From Natronincola sp. (GTDB taxonomy: Bacteria > Bacillota > Limnochordia > Darwinibacteriales > Darwinibacteriaceae): a stretch of DNA of 34,048 nt. Shown here one piece after another: positions 6,420 to 29,304 of the stretch; the first letter of the stretch is position 1, and each line of letters begins with the position of its first letter. The position numbers and the translations under genes were made by a program. The notes below the pieces were generated by a model, which was not told where the DNA came from, did not search any database, and saw nothing but the letters and a program-made list of their open reading frames with translations. Location of the stretch: assembly GCA_012838515.1 (NCBI GenBank), contig DUPA01000263.1:1-34048 (forward strand). Reading direction: 5' to 3'.

Positions 6420-7172
6420 GTGGTTCGAGTATTGCAAGCCGATAGCGACAGACATTTCCTTGATGAAGTGGAGAGCTACTTTAATCGGCTTCCTGATTTT
6501 AGATATTCAGGGGGCTTTGATAATAGCTATAATTTACTGAAAAAGATCGAAGATACTTGTCCCGATGTCCTCTTAATCGGGTTAGATCTGTCGCCACTCG
6601 GAGGAGTAGATGTTTTAAGGGAAATCAGATACAAGCTGGAAATAAATAAGCCCATAGTGATCATGATAAGCACTGAACTGCAAAGTGATGCTATTATTCA
6701 GGAAATGCCTAATCTTGGTGCTGATTATTATGTTTTAAGACCGGTTGACTTGGTTGTCCTAGAAAACAGAATTAGACAAATTCTGAAGATAAATCTGCCT
6801 GAAAGTGCGAGAAAAGTCTGTCGTAATCAGGTGCATGAAACTTGTGTAAGATATTTTTATAAAATGGGTATCCCACCCCATTATAAAGGCTACAGATACT
6901 TGATGGAAGGAATTTGGCTTGCTATTAAACATCCTTTTTTATTGAATTCCGTTACGAAGGATCTCTACCCCGCGATTGGAGAAAAATATAATACCAGTAG
7001 TGCCCAAGTGGAGAGAACCATGCGATATGCGCTGGATAAAACCTGGGAAGAAGGTAACGTTAAAAGTCTTTACGAATTTTTCCCCTATGAAATTTCGAAA
7101 AACAAAGGTAAACCAACGAATTCAGCTTTTATTGCAAAAATGGTGGAATTGGTAAGTTTAGAGATTAGGTAA
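6420..7172 (+). CDS. spo0A: Spo0A-like response regulator (atypical receiver)
   Basis: 250 aa; C-terminal domain IPPHYKGYRYLMEGIWLAI...SVTKDLYPAIGEKYNTSSAQVERTMRYALDKTW...GKPTNSAFIA is the Spo0A effector domain; GTG start after GGGGGG. Confidence 0.88.
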   Translation: MVRVLQADSDRHFLDEVESYFNRLPDFRYSGGFDNSYNLLKKIEDTCPDVLLIGLDLSPLGGVDVLREIRYKLEINKPIVIMISTELQSDAIIQEMPNLGADYYVLRPVDLVVLENRIRQILKINLPESARKVCRNQVHETCVRYFYKMGIPPHYKGYRYLMEGIWLAIKHPFLLNSVTKDLYPAIGEKYNTSSAQVERTMRYALDKTWEEGNVKSLYEFFPYEISKNKGKPTNSAFIAKMVELVSLEIR

Positions 7173-11945: not shown

Positions 11946-12914
11946 GTGATAATTACTAGAAAAAACCTGATTTTTGGAGCCTTAATAATGGTTGTTTTGT
12001 TAAGCATTTTCTTAACACCCAAGCTTTATACGTCCGTTCAAAGAAAGCTATATGGTGTAAAGAAAGGAGTTTCTCTTGAAGATGAGCCAATGCAAGGTTT
12101 ACTGCGTGACGAGTTATACGACGTCATCAGTGATTTGGCAACTAATTATAATGTCGAAGCTCAAAACGCAAAATGTAATTGGAATACCGGAGATATTGAA
12201 GTTGAGGTAATAGGGCAAGTGATAGATGTGGAGGAAACCATTGAGCTATTAATAAATGCTGAAGCAGGTAGTTCGTTAAAGCCAATTTTAGTGCCGGTTC
12301 TACCCTCTATTACCAGCGCACATTTCCAACCCTTCTACCGCGGACCAACAAGTGAGCCCAAGGTGGCTTTGATGATTAATGTGGATTGGGGAAATGAGTT
12401 TATCCCACAAATGCTAGAGGTACTGAAGCAGTATAATGCAAGTGTTACATGGTTTCCCACCGGTCGGTGGGCTGGTCTTTTTCCGGATTTGGTTAAAGAA
12501 ATAGACGTGGCAGGTCATGAATTGGGAAACCATGGCGGTTGGCATGGTATGCCAAGCAAAATGAGCCGTAGCGAAGTCACTAGGCTCATTGTAGAGGGGG
12601 AAAACTTAATACTGGAAGCTTGTGGACAAAAACCTCAGATTTTTGCTCCGCCGGCAGGTGATTTTAATAAACAGACAGTATTGGTTGCAGCTGAACTAGG
12701 TTACAAAACTGTTTTGTGGACCATTGATACGGTTGATTGGCAGAAACCGGCGCCCACGGTGATTATAGATAGAGTTATTGGAAAAATTAATAACGGAGCT
12801 TTAGTTTTGATGCATCCTACAAAACCCACATTAGAAGCCCTACCCGTTATTCTAGAACATTTGCAAAATCTAGGTTTTATTTGTGTGACCGTTAGTGAAC
12901 TATTATCTGACTAA
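11946..12914 (+). CDS. ylxY: YlxY-like NodB-domain sporulation protein
   Basis: VALMINVDWGNEFIPQMLEVL, GHELGNHGGWHG, TVLWTIDTVDW, ALVLMHPT; position near mlpA/ymxH matches ylxY in Bacillus-type synteny. Confidence 0.75.
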   Translation: MIITRKNLIFGALIMVVLLSIFLTPKLYTSVQRKLYGVKKGVSLEDEPMQGLLRDELYDVISDLATNYNVEAQNAKCNWNTGDIEVEVIGQVIDVEETIELLINAEAGSSLKPILVPVLPSITSAHFQPFYRGPTSEPKVALMINVDWGNEFIPQMLEVLKQYNASVTWFPTGRWAGLFPDLVKEIDVAGHELGNHGGWHGMPSKMSRSEVTRLIVEGENLILEACGQKPQIFAPPAGDFNKQTVLVAAELGYKTVLWTIDTVDWQKPAPTVIIDRVIGKINNGALVLMHPTKPTLEALPVILEHLQNLGFICVTVSELLSD

Positions 12915-14128
12915 AAGTTTTTCGCTAAAGTTCTCCAAATTTCAGGATCTTCGTAACCTAATTCAGATAGTGCTACTCCCGCTAAATCGTATTTATTTAT
13001 TAAATCAAATTTGTAATTTAAACTGTAACGATTCTCAAACCACACTTCATTACCGGAACCATAATGAAAGTATGGGCTTTTTGCATTGGCATCCCATTTT
13101 ATACTAGCACCTTGTTCAGCAGCTAGCTCCAGAATTTCTTTGTGGGAGAGCTTTGATGGATTACCGGTTTTGGACCAGTCAAAGCCAACATTGGGCAAGG
13201 CTAATATGGTTTTGTTGACAGGGAGTGTTTTCACAACCTCTTCTAACATTTCTTCTAGTAGTAGGGCCGAAGTTAGTGGACCTGGGTTTGTGTATTGGTT
13301 TGGGTTTCTTAATACAACGTAATCCACCTCCGTGCTAAAAGCTGCATAATCTACGTCCTCTCCCCAAGGAAGTGATACTAGAATTTGCATGTTATTAACG
13401 CTTAATTGTGACGCCAAAGCACTCACGTAGTGGAGTAACTTCGTCAGGTTTTCTTCTTTGGTACTGGGTATTTCAAGCATGACACCCTTGAGACCCCAGT
13501 TTTCTAAAGTTGCTAATATATTTGATATAGTGGTTTCTTGTAGATATTTATTATCAATAAATCTAGATGAATCCTCGGGGAAAGAGATCATGGCTATAGT
13601 TTCGATTTCTTGGTTACCTGCAAAATAAAGACTTTGGCCCATTTTCTGAGGATCGAAAAGCTCGTCAATCTGACCATAGCTATTTAGTCTCCAGCCGAAG
13701 GGTGTGATTGCGGTAAGATGTTCCGCTTGTCCCAATAAAACTTGGTATCCATTGTCGTTAACAGGATAGTAGCCGAGTACAATTTTTTTGTTGGTCTTTC
13801 GATTTGTCGGCAAGATGGACACGGCATATTGGGGTATCCAACCCTCAGAACCAGTTTTTAGCCTGATCTTGTACCAATTTTCTTTCTGATCAAGAATGAT
13901 AATTTGTTCTCTTTCCCTCACACTATCAATTGCTTCAGCCTCGTTTTGCGGTGCCTGTCTAAGTGTGACCTGTTTAGCCAATACTTGACCCGTTTGACCT
14001 AGTATAGAGTAGGATTGTTGAATTGACGGAACATTCATGGGGGTGCTGGGCTGTCCGGTACCCCCTCCAAATAGATTAGTAAGATACATAATAAATGATA
14101 AGATTGCAATACCGATACCTTTACCCAC
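12911..14128 (-). CDS. SH3-domain plus GH18-like (YaaH/YdhD-type fold) protein, putative non-catalytic
   Basis: 405 aa; N-terminal TM, SH3b (VTLRQAPQNEAEAIDSVREREQIIILDQKENWYKIRLKTGSEGWI), then GH18-like VLGYYPV...LTAITPFGWRLNSYGQI...WGLKGVMLEIPS...VWFENRYSLNYKFDLINKYDLAGVALSELG. Confidence 0.7.
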   Translation of the reverse strand: MGKGIGIAILSFIMYLTNLFGGGTGQPSTPMNVPSIQQSYSILGQTGQVLAKQVTLRQAPQNEAEAIDSVREREQIIILDQKENWYKIRLKTGSEGWIPQYAVSILPTNRKTNKKIVLGYYPVNDNGYQVLLGQAEHLTAITPFGWRLNSYGQIDELFDPQKMGQSLYFAGNQEIETIAMISFPEDSSRFIDNKYLQETTISNILATLENWGLKGVMLEIPSTKEENLTKLLHYVSALASQLSVNNMQILVSLPWGEDVDYAAFSTEVDYVVLRNPNQYTNPGPLTSALLLEEMLEEVVKTLPVNKTILALPNVGFDWSKTGNPSKLSHKEILELAAEQGASIKWDANAKSPYFHYGSGNEVWFENRYSLNYKFDLINKYDLAGVALSELGYEDPEIWRTLAKNF

Positions 14129-14239
14129 GGAATTCCCCCTTTCTGCTCAAGTGAATCTATGGTATCATATTCATAATGTAAAATCATTGGAAAGAAGAGT
14201 GCACAATGGATGGTTTTTCAAATTGCACCGGAGGAAACT

Positions 14240-15493
14240 ATGTATCAAAGAACTGTTCTATCTAATGGAATTAGAATCGTCACAGAGTATATTCCTCACC
14301 TGCATTCGGTCACCTTGGGAGCATGGTTTGAAGTGGGTAGTAGGCACGAGTTGCCTGAAGAATGGGGTGTTTCGCATTTTATTGAACATTTGATGTTTAA
14401 GGGCAATAAAAAATATTCTGCCCGTGAGATTGCTGAGATCATGGATAATCACGGTGGATACCTTAATGCCTTCACAGGAAAAGAAGAAACTTGTTATTAT
14501 TTTAAAGCACTTGATGAGGATTTCACCATGGCAGCAGATGTTTTAGGGGAAATGCTCTTACATTCTTTGTTTTCCTACGATGATTTGATAAAAGAAAAGA
14601 ATGTGGTTTTAGAAGAGATCGGAATGTACGAAGACTCTCCTGAAGACTTGGCCCACGACTTATTCGAAGAGGCTTTTTGGGCAGATCACGCTTTAGGCAG
14701 GCGCATTTTAGGTTCGCCCGGAAGCGTAGGGAAATTTACTAAGGAACAAATTTGTTTATATCTAGAAAAGCACTATACAACGGATCGCCTCGTAATTGCC
14801 AGTGCAGGAAATATTCCCCATGAAAGGGTCGTCAAGGAATTTGCCGAAAGGTTTTCTGATTTACCTCGCGGTCAAAAACACCCATTAGAATCACCTATTA
14901 AGAACGGAAGGCGGGGACTTTTCCATAATAAGAATCTGGAGCAGGTTCATCTTTGTTTAGGAAATTCAACGTTCGCCCGTAATGATAAGCGCCGTCATAT
15001 GCTAAATCTTTTGGATACAATTATTGGTGGTGGGGTTAGTTCATTACTCTTTCAAGAGCTCAGGGAAGAAAGGGGATTGGTATACAACACATATTCCTTT
15101 AATTCTTCTTACGAAGACGTCGGCTTATGTGGGATTTATGCGGGATTTAGTCCTCACAATTGGTCAAAAGTGTGGGATGTCATATGTTCTCTCTTCAGTG
15201 ATCTATCGAAATATATCCACGAAGAGATGCTTCAAAGGGCCAAGGGTCAACTGCGCGGTAGTTTGATGTTATCTCTGGAAAGCACTAATAATCGCATGAC
15301 CAGATTGGCAAGGGGCGAACTTGACGAGGGAAGAATAATAACTCCCGAAGAACTTTTGATTGAAGTGGAACAGGTAAAGTACATTGACTTAATGGCACTG
15401 GCCGTAGAAATCTATAATCCAAAAGATTGGACTTGGGTAAGTCTTGGGCAACAAAACTATGGGGGGGATCCACTATGTCCAAAGATATGTTAA
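14240..15493 (+). CDS. mlpA: M16 family zinc peptidase (MlpA/YmxG)
   Basis: ORF 14210..15493; ATG 14240 follows GGAGG. HFIEH zinc motif, NAFTGKEETCYYFKAL, GGGVSSLLFQELREERGLVYNTYSF. Confidence 0.93.
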   Translation: MYQRTVLSNGIRIVTEYIPHLHSVTLGAWFEVGSRHELPEEWGVSHFIEHLMFKGNKKYSAREIAEIMDNHGGYLNAFTGKEETCYYFKALDEDFTMAADVLGEMLLHSLFSYDDLIKEKNVVLEEIGMYEDSPEDLAHDLFEEAFWADHALGRRILGSPGSVGKFTKEQICLYLEKHYTTDRLVIASAGNIPHERVVKEFAERFSDLPRGQKHPLESPIKNGRRGLFHNKNLEQVHLCLGNSTFARNDKRRHMLNLLDTIIGGGVSSLLFQELREERGLVYNTYSFNSSYEDVGLCGIYAGFSPHNWSKVWDVICSLFSDLSKYIHEEMLQRAKGQLRGSLMLSLESTNNRMTRLARGELDEGRIITPEELLIEVEQVKYIDLMALAVEIYNPKDWTWVSLGQQNYGGDPLCPKIC

Positions 15494-15840
15494 AAGAAAT
15501 CTTTCGGTTGCAGGCTAGCTTTGATGAATCTGTAGTAAAAAACAGAGGATTGAACTTTTCAAAGGAAGTCTGGATTCAAAAAGAAATTCTAGCAATTATT
15601 TCCGAACTAAGTGAAATTTTAGATGAGGTTAATTTTAAGTGGTGGAAAGATCCGAAAGAGATTAACCAAGCCAGCCTTACTGAAGAAATCGTAGATGTAT
15701 TACACTTCTTTGTTAGTATGTGTCTAAAAGCGGGTATTGGTCCGGATGAGCTTTTTGCGGCCTATATTGAAAAAAACAAAGAGAATTTCGAACGCCAAGA
15801 AGGTCATAGTAAAAAAGAAGGATATGCTTGGAAAAAATAG
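15475..15840 (+). CDS. All-alpha NTP pyrophosphatase (dUTPase_2/MazG-like)
   Basis: ORF 15427..15840; ATG 15475 after GGGGGG. LFRLQ-like start, EILAIISELSEILDEVNFKWWKD...LTEEIVDVLHFFVSMCLKAGI with E-x-x-E / E-x-x-D motifs. Confidence 0.72.
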   Translation: MSKDMLKEIFRLQASFDESVVKNRGLNFSKEVWIQKEILAIISELSEILDEVNFKWWKDPKEINQASLTEEIVDVLHFFVSMCLKAGIGPDELFAAYIEKNKENFERQEGHSKKEGYAWKK

Positions 15841-15856
15841 TGTATCGTGATATAAT
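15828..15856 (+). promoter_or_regulatory. Candidate sigma-A promoter for the beta-barrel-like gene
   Basis: TTGGAA (15828-15833), 17 bp spacer, TATAAT (15851-15856). Confidence 0.6.
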
Positions 15857-15900
15857 CAAACTACTCCGTGCCCAGGGAGATGTTCAAAGGGGAATGATCT

Positions 15901-17136
15901 TTGTATCGGCATGGAGTTTTTTTGATCTTATTTTTATTGGTTTTTTCTGCACCCTTAACTGAGGCCAAGGCTTTTACGGGTTTAATTTCGGGTACTGTGG
16001 AAACAGAGGGAATAGCAAATTTGCTAAGTTTTGAAGGGAATCATTTTTCAAGTATTAATTTTGAATTGGGTTTGGAAAGCCACCTAGATTATGAGGGATA
16101 CCATAAACATAACCCTAGATGGGCTTTAAATTTAAAACCCTCAAAAAACTCGGAGATTACAATCAAACGTAATCACGAACACTTTACATCACCGGATACT
16201 TTTAGGCTAATTAAAGATACAAATTTTTTGAGCAAAACCCGACTTTATTCTTTGCGATATGGCGGGATACACGGAGCAATACTAAAAAATGTTCCTTTTA
16301 AATCTTTAGATAGCGTAGATGTTTTATATCTGGCGGGAAATATCGAAATTAATTCGGCTTCTTTTCGGGTCACAGAATTAAAGTATGCAGGATTAAAGGA
16401 AAGCGGTTCGGCAAGGGTTCTTGAAATGAAGGTCGATTCGGAGTTGATGGCTAGCTCGGTTGCCATGGGATGGCAAGAAGATACAAAGGGTGATGTGTCG
16501 AAGGGCTTTATATCGGAAATTGCCCTAAAGGGTAAGAAACTAAATGGTTCACTTGAATGGCGGCAAATTCATCCCGGGTTTAGGAGTCCTTTCTCCGAAA
16601 ACGAAAAACATGCTAAAAATAGACGGGGTTATCATTTAACACATAACGCTTTCGTAGGGAATCTAAAAATATCAGCGAACTTTCGTCGTCATCAAAATAT
16701 GGAGGGAACCAGACAATATAACCAGCATTCCTGGACTATCTCGGCTAAAGACAAGCATACCGAAGTTGAATGGCGCCTAGAGCCAACAACCGCTTTCATT
16801 TTGCGTTACGAGAAAGATAAGATAAGGATACAACTGGATGCATGGAACGCTTCATTACGCTATGCCAATAGGTATGGCGGTTTAAACTATGATTTAAGGG
16901 CAGATGGAAAACATGGAATCTTTCGCTGGCAGTTAGGTTCCGGTCAAAAAGTTAGATGGAGAGCAATCGGAAAATATGATTTAAACAAAAAACGTACGCA
17001 CCATTCGGTTTTTGTCATTTATGAGCTGGATAAGGCAACATTTCAGCTTGAATTAGGCAAATACGATCGGGGAAATATACTTGCCGGATTTCACGATTCA
17101 CCACAATTTTGTATATCATGGGGGTATGAGTTCTAG
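15901..17136 (+). CDS. Secreted beta-rich protein, putative outer-membrane beta-barrel
   Basis: TTG start after AAGGGG; signal peptide MYRHGVFLILFLLVFSAPLTEAKA; many alternating amphipathic beta-strand-like segments; C-terminal FCISWGYEF with alternating hydrophobics and terminal Phe. Confidence 0.5.
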   Translation: MYRHGVFLILFLLVFSAPLTEAKAFTGLISGTVETEGIANLLSFEGNHFSSINFELGLESHLDYEGYHKHNPRWALNLKPSKNSEITIKRNHEHFTSPDTFRLIKDTNFLSKTRLYSLRYGGIHGAILKNVPFKSLDSVDVLYLAGNIEINSASFRVTELKYAGLKESGSARVLEMKVDSELMASSVAMGWQEDTKGDVSKGFISEIALKGKKLNGSLEWRQIHPGFRSPFSENEKHAKNRRGYHLTHNAFVGNLKISANFRRHQNMEGTRQYNQHSWTISAKDKHTEVEWRLEPTTAFILRYEKDKIRIQLDAWNASLRYANRYGGLNYDLRADGKHGIFRWQLGSGQKVRWRAIGKYDLNKKRTHHSVFVIYELDKATFQLELGKYDRGNILAGFHDSPQFCISWGYEF

Positions 17137-17175: not shown

Positions 17176-17475
17176 ATGCGATATTCCGAGCTTTCCGGAA
17201 AAGAAATGGTGTGCATAGACGAAGGCATAAAGCTGGGTGTCGTAGATCACACGGATCTGATTATTAATCTTCGAACAGGCGAAATAGATTCCATAATTAT
17301 TCCTTATGGCAATCGATGGTTTAGACCGCGCCTGATAGTCGTCCCGTGGAAGGGAATCAAAAAAATAGGTCGTGATTTAATAATAATCGACTTAACTACC
17401 GCACAAGATTATTCCGAAACCATGCGCAAAATAGAAGAACGTTCGCAACGGAATAAGCCCCCTTTTTTTGGGTAA
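17176..17475 (+). CDS. ymxH: YlmC/YmxH family sporulation protein (PRC-barrel)
   Basis: MRYSELSGKEMVCIDEGIKLGVVDHTDLIINLRTGEIDSIIIP...VVPWKGIKKIGRDLIIID. Confidence 0.88.
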   Translation: MRYSELSGKEMVCIDEGIKLGVVDHTDLIINLRTGEIDSIIIPYGNRWFRPRLIVVPWKGIKKIGRDLIIIDLTTAQDYSETMRKIEERSQRNKPPFFG

Positions 17476-17508: not shown

Positions 17509-18009
17509 TTGTCAACTGTAATCGGTGTATTTACGGATATATCCACAGCGGAAGAAGCTGTAAAAGCCTTGCGAGAAAAGGGGTTCAAAGATAACGAGAT
17601 TTCAATTCTTGCCAAGGACGAACAAGGCGGTGGATCCGGCTCTCAGGATATGGAAGCAGGCGATGATTTCGGAACAGATTCAATCGCCGATGGAACCGCG
17701 TGGGGCGGTGCACTGGGCGGAGCCGCCGGATTGTTGGCCGGCGTGGGAGCCTTAGCCATACCAGGGATTGGTCCCATAATTGCCGCAGGACCTTTAGCCG
17801 GTGTTTTATCGGGAGCCGTTACCGGTGGGGTTGCAGGGGGCCTAATTGATTTGGGCATTCCTGAAGAACGGGGAAGACAGTATGAAGAGAATTTGAAACA
17901 AGGTGGCGTGCTTGCTGTTATAGAAACCAGTTCAGATAAAGTTAATGACGCAAGCTCAATATTAAGACAAAATGGGGCCAAAGATGTGGAAACCCACGGT
18001 GGTAACTAG
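17509..18009 (+). CDS. General stress protein 17M-like (YflT-domain) protein with glycine-zipper core
   Basis: STVIGVFTDISTAEEAVKALREKGFKDNEISIL, then Gly/Ala-rich GGALGGAAGLLAGVGALAIPGIGPIIAAGPLAGVLSGAVTGGVAGG; TTG start after AAAGGGGG. Confidence 0.72.
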   Translation: MSTVIGVFTDISTAEEAVKALREKGFKDNEISILAKDEQGGGSGSQDMEAGDDFGTDSIADGTAWGGALGGAAGLLAGVGALAIPGIGPIIAAGPLAGVLSGAVTGGVAGGLIDLGIPEERGRQYEENLKQGGVLAVIETSSDKVNDASSILRQNGAKDVETHGGN

Positions 18010-29276: not shown

Positions 29277-29304
29277 GATTCTCATATGGTCAAATATGAG
29301 AATC
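29277..29304 (+). repeat. Perfect 11-bp inverted repeat over the Na/Pi transporter start
   Basis: GATTCTCATAT-GGTCAA-ATATGAGAATC. Confidence 0.85.

Follow-up and report, generated by a model that had tools for sequence, protein, structure and literature searches.

The window analysed here, a stretch of 34,048 nucleotides, encodes an outer-membrane beta-barrel protein whose gene begins with a conserved RNA leader. On the evidence laid out below, this protein is probably a single-copy outer-membrane solute channel of the Limnochordia that serves vegetative cells independently of sporulation, and the amount made is probably controlled by a leader with which its mRNA begins. The genome to which the window belongs comprises 2.16 Mb in 271 contigs and is 93% complete. 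The coding features are as follows.

15901-17136, + strand: open reading frame of the outer-membrane beta-barrel protein, TTG start, 411 aa, 26 predicted strands
15901-15972, + strand: signal peptide MYRHGVFLILFLLVFSAPLTEAKA, read from the sequence; a low-confidence helix in both structure models
17107-17133, + strand: C-terminal beta-signal FCISWGYEF, with the aromatic last residue retained across the family alignment

A preliminary description had proposed a TTG-initiated frame with a signal peptide ending in AKA and a beta-signal at the C-terminus, and the frame indeed spans exactly 15901-17136 on the + strand. It is preceded by the Shine-Dalgarno sequence AAAGGGG (15886-15892). The Sec signal peptide, judged from its sequence and from homologues, consists of an n-region with Arg and His, the hydrophobic core VFLILFLLVF and a c-region ending AKA/FTG. 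At the C-terminus, hydrophobic or aromatic residues occupy positions F(0), Y(-2), W(-4), I(-6) and F(-8). The alternation of polar and hydrophobic residues that had been noticed was quantified in the predicted strands of the window barrel (2.86 versus 1.67 ± 0.24 after shuffling) and as a mean over the alignment (2.85 versus 1.31 ± 0.19); in both cases none of 2000 within-strand shuffles reached the observed value. Related genomes carry at the equivalent place an open reading frame that ends in F or W and shares 16-35% identity with the window barrel. Searches of Pfam, NCBIfam and PDB matched the barrel to no sequence family, consistent with the earlier remark that no named family could be recognised. 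Single Pfam matches, for example Porin_4 in one family member (0.0023), were too weak to be used. The barrel is a new family of a known kind of outer-membrane protein.

The host genome encodes BamA with POTRA repeats, the Lpt components LptC and LptF/G clustered with an LptD-like protein, an OmpH/Skp-like protein, and the flagellar L- and P-ring proteins FlgH and FlgI. As the L-ring protein, FlgH belongs in an outer membrane. Proteins of the Omp85 family were found in 71 of 73 genomes of the class. The host, a member of the Limnochordia, is a diderm, as had been suspected, and the BamA that such a host should possess is present. SpoIVA and DpaAB are encoded as well, which makes the organism a probable spore former, in agreement with the suggested endospore former; sporulation of this particular strain is read from its genes. 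A Spo0A-like protein (window 6420-7172) scored 188.8 bits, just under the curated cut-off of 200 bits. The relatives within the window genome's own family include the MAG UBA3914 (L046), which corresponds to GTDB DTU010 of the class Limnochordia (PMC10608942). According to PMC11456536, which cites Taib 2020 and Watanabe 2016, the diderm envelope of the Limnochordia has already been published. The designation as a diderm endospore former is correct for the lineage, but was known beforehand. Two further observations were made on contig C46 of the same genome (L047). A protein with a partial SpoIVB peptidase S55 match (12809-14551) lies directly beside BamA, and a 209 aa protein of the BamA/Lpt cluster (P0003, 8970-9599), which ends in LGLNYKVSF and has no Pfam match, is possibly a second small outer-membrane barrel.

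AlphaFold, supplied with 18 natural relatives of the window barrel, predicted 26 antiparallel strands (mean pLDDT 89.8, pTM 0.77). A homologue with 23% identity, modelled with the same relatives as alignment, again gave 26 strands (pLDDT 91.3). In a Foldseek search against the PDB all top matches were outer-membrane proteins (FimD, LptD, TonB receptors, PapC and porins). The best TM-score was about 0.5, so that the fold class of the barrel is clear, while a specific functional relative cannot be named from it. The structure prediction that had been recommended for the supposed outer-membrane barrel supports it at the level of the fold class: by these models, the protein of 15901-17136 is an outer-membrane protein of barrel-type fold with 26 strands. 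The strands start right after the signal peptide. Assuming a periplasmic N-terminus, the C-terminus is periplasmic too and every periplasmic turn then has 2-4 residues. In this orientation the three long loops (residues 91-113, 224-240 and 386-402), which are strongly conserved, all lie on the outer side. The protein shares with BAM-dependent outer-membrane barrels the signal peptide, antiparallel strands that are even in number and alternate in their faces, short turns on the periplasmic side, the aromatic C-terminal beta-signal and a BamA in the genome. In contrast to them, it has no sequence family in Pfam, NCBIfam or PDB, and accommodates 26 strands in only about 387 residues. It would be made as a Sec precursor and, judging by the C-terminal beta-signal, would be inserted into the outer membrane by the host BamA.

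Conservation was higher at lumen-facing than at lipid-facing positions (2.50 versus 2.16 bits) and peaked in strands 17-25. The conserved residues that face inwards (R241, R262, R292, Q311, D313, R320, D335, R342, R354, K358, D360 and E384) are concentrated in the barrel's second half, and the lumen-facing R, K, D, E and Q are invariant or nearly so. Conserved charged residues in the lumen fit a selective channel for charged solutes. Most likely, the barrel serves vegetative cells as a general envelope channel for small charged solutes, independently of sporulation. Alternatively, it could convey something larger, such as a lipid, polysaccharide or protein, in the manner of LptD, an usher or MtrB, and work with a plug or partner. 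Twenty-six is the known strand count of LptD, the best Foldseek matches include LptD, FimD and PapC, and the long loops are conserved; the strand number in particular keeps a conduit under consideration. However, the barrel has no periplasmic domain, the BamA/Lpt cluster encodes an LptD-like protein of its own, no partner gene was seen to move along with the barrel in the loci compared, and the TM-scores do not exceed about 0.5. We regard a conduit for large substrates as unlikely.

The window barrel was further compared with two known outer-membrane barrels. LptD, the 26-strand LPS translocon, has the same number of strands and is among the best fold matches, but the window barrel lacks the N-terminal LptD_N/OstA jelly-roll domain, and the Lpt/BamA cluster contains a separate LptD-like protein, P0001. 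Identity with LptD was ruled out by this separate gene and the missing LptD_N. OmpM, the main porin and tether of diderm Firmicutes (PMC10628300), is likewise an outer-membrane barrel of such bacteria, but the window barrel has neither an SLH domain nor a periplasmic stalk. SLH proteins, the hallmark of OmpM, were found in 72 of 73 class genomes, so that the barrel is probably a second outer-membrane protein beside OmpM. The sole genome of the 73 with no SLH match is the window's own, where a gap in the assembly of 271 contigs may account for it. The preliminary description had suggested looking for LptD and OmpM in the genome; the former has its counterpart in the LptD-like protein, whereas the SLH signature of the latter did not turn up. 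The idea that the barrel replaces OmpM, which this missing match had prompted, was rejected in view of the 72 SLH-bearing genomes.

A scan of the genome contigs with the window barrel sequence alone retrieved no relatives, and an alignment-based scan retrieved 20. The barrel profile (A1) matched 52 of the 73 genomes of the class, in almost every case a single time, and had no match in about 380 genomes of the phylum outside the class (sample of 399 genomes). Among the genomes searched, matches were confined to the diderm class Limnochordia, which agrees with the expected restriction of homologues to diderm Firmicutes. Four loci in genomes below the profile threshold (L093, L094, L099 and L100) have at the equivalent place a barrel-like open reading frame with a similar C-terminal signature. 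The neighbours of the barrel gene in the window are the following.

14210-15493, + strand: M16 peptidase (mlpA/ymxG-like), upstream neighbour
15427-15840, + strand: all-alpha dUTPase_2 (MazG-like), immediately upstream of the barrel gene, E 3.2e-23
17176-17475, + strand: ymxH, downstream neighbour, TIGR02888 above cut-off
17509-18009, + strand: YflT-domain stress protein, neighbour, PF11181
18129-21414, + strand: dapB, dpaA, dpaB and asd, neighbourhood, outside the barrel's function

The complete order is SH3/GH18 (opposite strand), M16 peptidase, dUTPase_2, barrel, ymxH, YflT, dapB, dpaA, dpaB, asd. In nearly all loci checked the barrel lies between the mlpA/dUTPase genes and ymxH, and the order is largely kept in distant families. 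Between species of a family, the neighbouring genes often share 60-87% identity, compared with 23-35% for the barrel. Families f7, f10, f11 and f14 have no barrel at the locus; a diverged copy elsewhere is possible. In the barrel-less loci L092, L095-L098 and L101 a trimeric-type dUTPase-like open reading frame was observed after the M16 peptidase and upstream of ymxH; at this place, lineages with the barrel carry the all-alpha dUTPase_2 gene as well as the barrel itself.

The preliminary description had tied the barrel to the ymxH/dap/dpa genes. The barrel would then be an outer-membrane protein of sporulation or of dipicolinate/DAP metabolism, acting in spore formation or DAP/DPA traffic and co-regulated with ymxH-dpaAB. 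Gene order is indeed conserved: the adjacency to ymxH-YflT-dapB-dpaAB-asd is near-invariant in the members checked, and the next gene downstream is only about 40 bp away. However, presence and absence dissociate in both directions. No match to spoIVA or dpaB was found in G026, G028 and G030 (family f5) or in G023 (family f2), yet G026, G030 and G023 have kept the barrel, which is therefore not restricted to sporulating, DPA-making genomes. In G026 and G030 it adjoins dapB-asd, with ymxH and dpaAB gone; in G028 the leader was found at a contig end. Two further genomes (G002 and G032) carry the barrel without a dpaB match. Conversely, the barrel was not found in G024, G029, G031 and G033, which keep spoIVA, dpaB and ymxH in the arrangement ymxH-dapB-dpaB; in G024 the end of mlpA lies about 70 bp ahead of ymxH. 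Some of the genomes lacking the barrel or the sporulation genes are drafts in which single absences may be gaps, and the pattern rests on several genomes. The barrel gene also has a sigma-A-type, that is vegetative-type, promoter of its own. The adjacency thus looks like inherited gene order and not like evidence of shared function. A tie to sporulation or DPA was rejected on the presence and absence in both directions; this double dissociation largely refutes the reading, which we consider very improbable.

The promoter and the leader of the barrel gene consist of these elements.

15828-15856, + strand: sigma-A/70-type promoter TTGGAA-17-TATAAT with extended -10 (TGATATAAT), from a consensus scan
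15863-15872, + strand: P1 5' arm (ACTCCGTGCC), pairs with 15908-15917, compensatory changes, predicted mRNA 5' end
15873-15882, + strand: CAGGGAGATG, a conserved stretch that separates the P1 arm from P2, with a purine-rich AGGGA core
15885-15903, + strand: inner hairpin P2, CAAAGG (15885-15890) with TCTTTG (15898-15903), register from relatives
15908-15923, + strand: P1 3' arm GGCATGGAGT (15908-15917) and U-tract TTTTTTT (15917-15923), codons 3-8 of the open reading frame

The -10 and the extended TG are conserved in 19 members of the barrel family, and the -10 stands 6-7 nt from the P1 5' arm in 17 of the 19, the first base of the leader being the expected transcription start. Because the -35 falls into the last part of the upstream coding sequence, its conservation is partly coding. 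Since promoter-like sites in the region are not above chance in number, the case for the promoter rests on conservation. The leader ACTCCGYGCCCAGGGAGATGTYCAAAGGAG, which follows the extended -10, is conserved in 19 relatives, more so than the barrel protein. Within it, ACTCCGCGC is the reverse complement of GCGCGGAGT, the signal-peptide codons for Met-Arg-Gly-Val, and a run of T comes next. CAAAGG of P2 overlaps the Shine-Dalgarno sequence and TCTTTG contains the TTG start. The AGGGA core is invariant in all 26 sequences of the order. The first ~65 nt of the RNA thus form a hairpin in which the Shine-Dalgarno sequence and the UUG start lie buried. In the window, P1 has 10 bp with one G-U, and the leader reaches -24.6 kcal/mol at 37 °C (z -3.3); P1 is present in its minimum-energy fold, whereas the interior is paired otherwise, and half of P2a is lost. 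The start region of the barrel gene ranked second of 37 genes in the window by folding. The start of a Na/Pi-cotransporter-like gene at 29296 folds more strongly relative to shuffles (z -3.7). Strong folding at a gene start is not unique in the window, and folding energy alone is therefore not our argument for the leader.

The pairing was evaluated over 26 sequences, in which 94.7% of cells can pair, compared with 25.7-63.2% in slid controls. Changes of both partners affected six pairs, against a mean of 2.1 after shuffling, and were counted in 14 cells, against a mean of 2.8. Since relatedness survives the shuffling, these counts are indicative; separate support comes from the slid control, from the codon bias and from the search with the model. 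Compensatory changes include C-G to U-A in the window, G-C to A-U in L025, and C-G to U-A in L042 and L045, where the exchange turns Gly into Glu in the barrel protein. A U-tract of 5-7 T within 8 nt after the arm was present in 26 of 26 sequences. Its Phe codons are all TTT, even in genes of 60-64% GC, whereas TTT makes up 35-82% elsewhere in the same genes. Likewise, the Arg codon of the arm is CGC in 17 of 17 relatives, compared with 11-45% elsewhere. Such uniformity in genes that otherwise mix codons points to selection on synonymous choice. A covariance model built from the 26 rows matched the window at 15861-15926 (E 3.8e-16) and found the leader once each in 31 of 37 genomes of the order (E<1e-8), including G017, G023 and G028 from outside the model rows. 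Those matches whose position was compared with that of the barrel matches lie at the start of the barrel gene. Every other match was at least 13 bits lower, and several were the complementary strand of the same site. In spore formers that have lost the barrel, the model found no leader. Compensatory changes, codon bias and covariance model together support a paired leader RNA as predicted from the sequences. Comparison with the Rfam covariance models gave no match up to E = 1, by which a known RNA family was ruled out. A multi-gene regulon was ruled out by the one site in the host genome and the one strong match per genome.

An inverted repeat directly downstream of a promoter could also be a DNA operator for a dimeric transcription factor. 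The arms do form an inverted repeat beside the -10, and one site in the host genome is what a dedicated operator might show. This is very unlikely, as the arm spacing varies between 33 and 42 nt; furthermore, the arms change jointly instead of keeping a sequence, the inner pairing covers the Shine-Dalgarno sequence and the start codon, and the U-tract is conserved.

In the RNA reading, the 5' end of the mRNA (ACTCCGYGC) pairs with codons 3-6, in which the signal peptide has its conserved Arg-Gly-Val; enclosed by this P1 helix, the Shine-Dalgarno sequence pairs with the UUG start. As in intrinsic terminators, a stable hairpin is followed directly by a U-tract, although the P1 loop of 33-42 nt is longer than in standard terminators. 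Because the U-tract comes directly after P1, the nascent leader resembles a terminator-like, ribosome-excluding hairpin. It may limit barrel expression by early termination and/or ribosome exclusion as long as neither a ribosome nor temperature nor some other factor opens it. We infer that the hairpin represses or attenuates expression of the barrel, as an attenuator or a translational switch. 5' leader attenuators and ORF-internal terminators (for example PMC7815308) share a hairpin and U-run at the gene start; the barrel hairpin differs from them in enclosing the Shine-Dalgarno sequence and the start codon and in overlapping the coding region.

The leader could instead be a stability element or an RNA thermometer without termination, its U-tract merely reflecting Phe-Phe codons. 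As in RNA thermometers, the pairing sequesters the Shine-Dalgarno sequence and the start. The Yersinia ompA 5'-UTR thermometer (PMC8245352) is a known case in which RNA structure hides the place where translation of an outer-membrane protein begins; in the barrel leader, in contrast, the 3' arm lies inside signal-peptide codons, the UUG itself is paired and the U-tract follows. Inspection by eye of families f6 and f16 revealed apparent hairpins over the AUG start of the same gene (L077:3030-3060 and the leaders of L080 and L078), unrelated in sequence to the leader of the window's order. On the other hand, a minimum energy of about -25 kcal/mol (37 °C) argues against simple melting, and TTC never occurs among the Phe codons of the U-tract, even in the GC-rich genes. 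Moreover, family f12 has a separate, terminator-shaped leader between the promoter and the Shine-Dalgarno sequence of the same gene, a GC-rich hairpin followed by a T-run, which points to termination. Its arms GCCCG...CGGGC are both changed in L083, to GCTCG...CGAGC. These leaders are located as follows.

L082, 5645-5735, minus strand: f12 terminator-shaped leader
L083, 2718-2800, minus strand: f12 terminator-shaped leader
L086, 5108-5200, minus strand: f12 terminator-shaped leader
L087, 5180-5272, minus strand: f12 terminator-shaped leader

A leader acting without termination is quite conceivable, at a little under an even chance. A specific form of attenuation, which we put forward tentatively and hold to be rather doubtful, is a ribosome-gated attenuator inside the signal peptide: only an early-loading ribosome would open it, and transcription would be linked with the initiation of translation and, perhaps, with the capacity for export. 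If so, upkeep of the hairpin would have shaped the N-terminus of the barrel, where RGVF is kept and the Gly to Glu exchange came together with the change in the leader. The leaders of the different families suggest that leader control of the barrel gene is general in the class, with differing sequences. Leader control as such is known; the variant in the window's order is new, and its unusual trait is that codons of the signal peptide form part of the structure.

Besides OmpM, few outer-membrane proteins of deep diderm Firmicutes have been described, and such proteins bear on the retention or loss of the outer membrane. The barrel adds a class-wide, near-core outer-membrane protein that has no family entry. 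Its leader, a candidate regulatory RNA that is conserved and specific to this gene, dictates residues of the signal peptide and bears on how a Terrabacteria diderm controls the synthesis of an outer-membrane protein.
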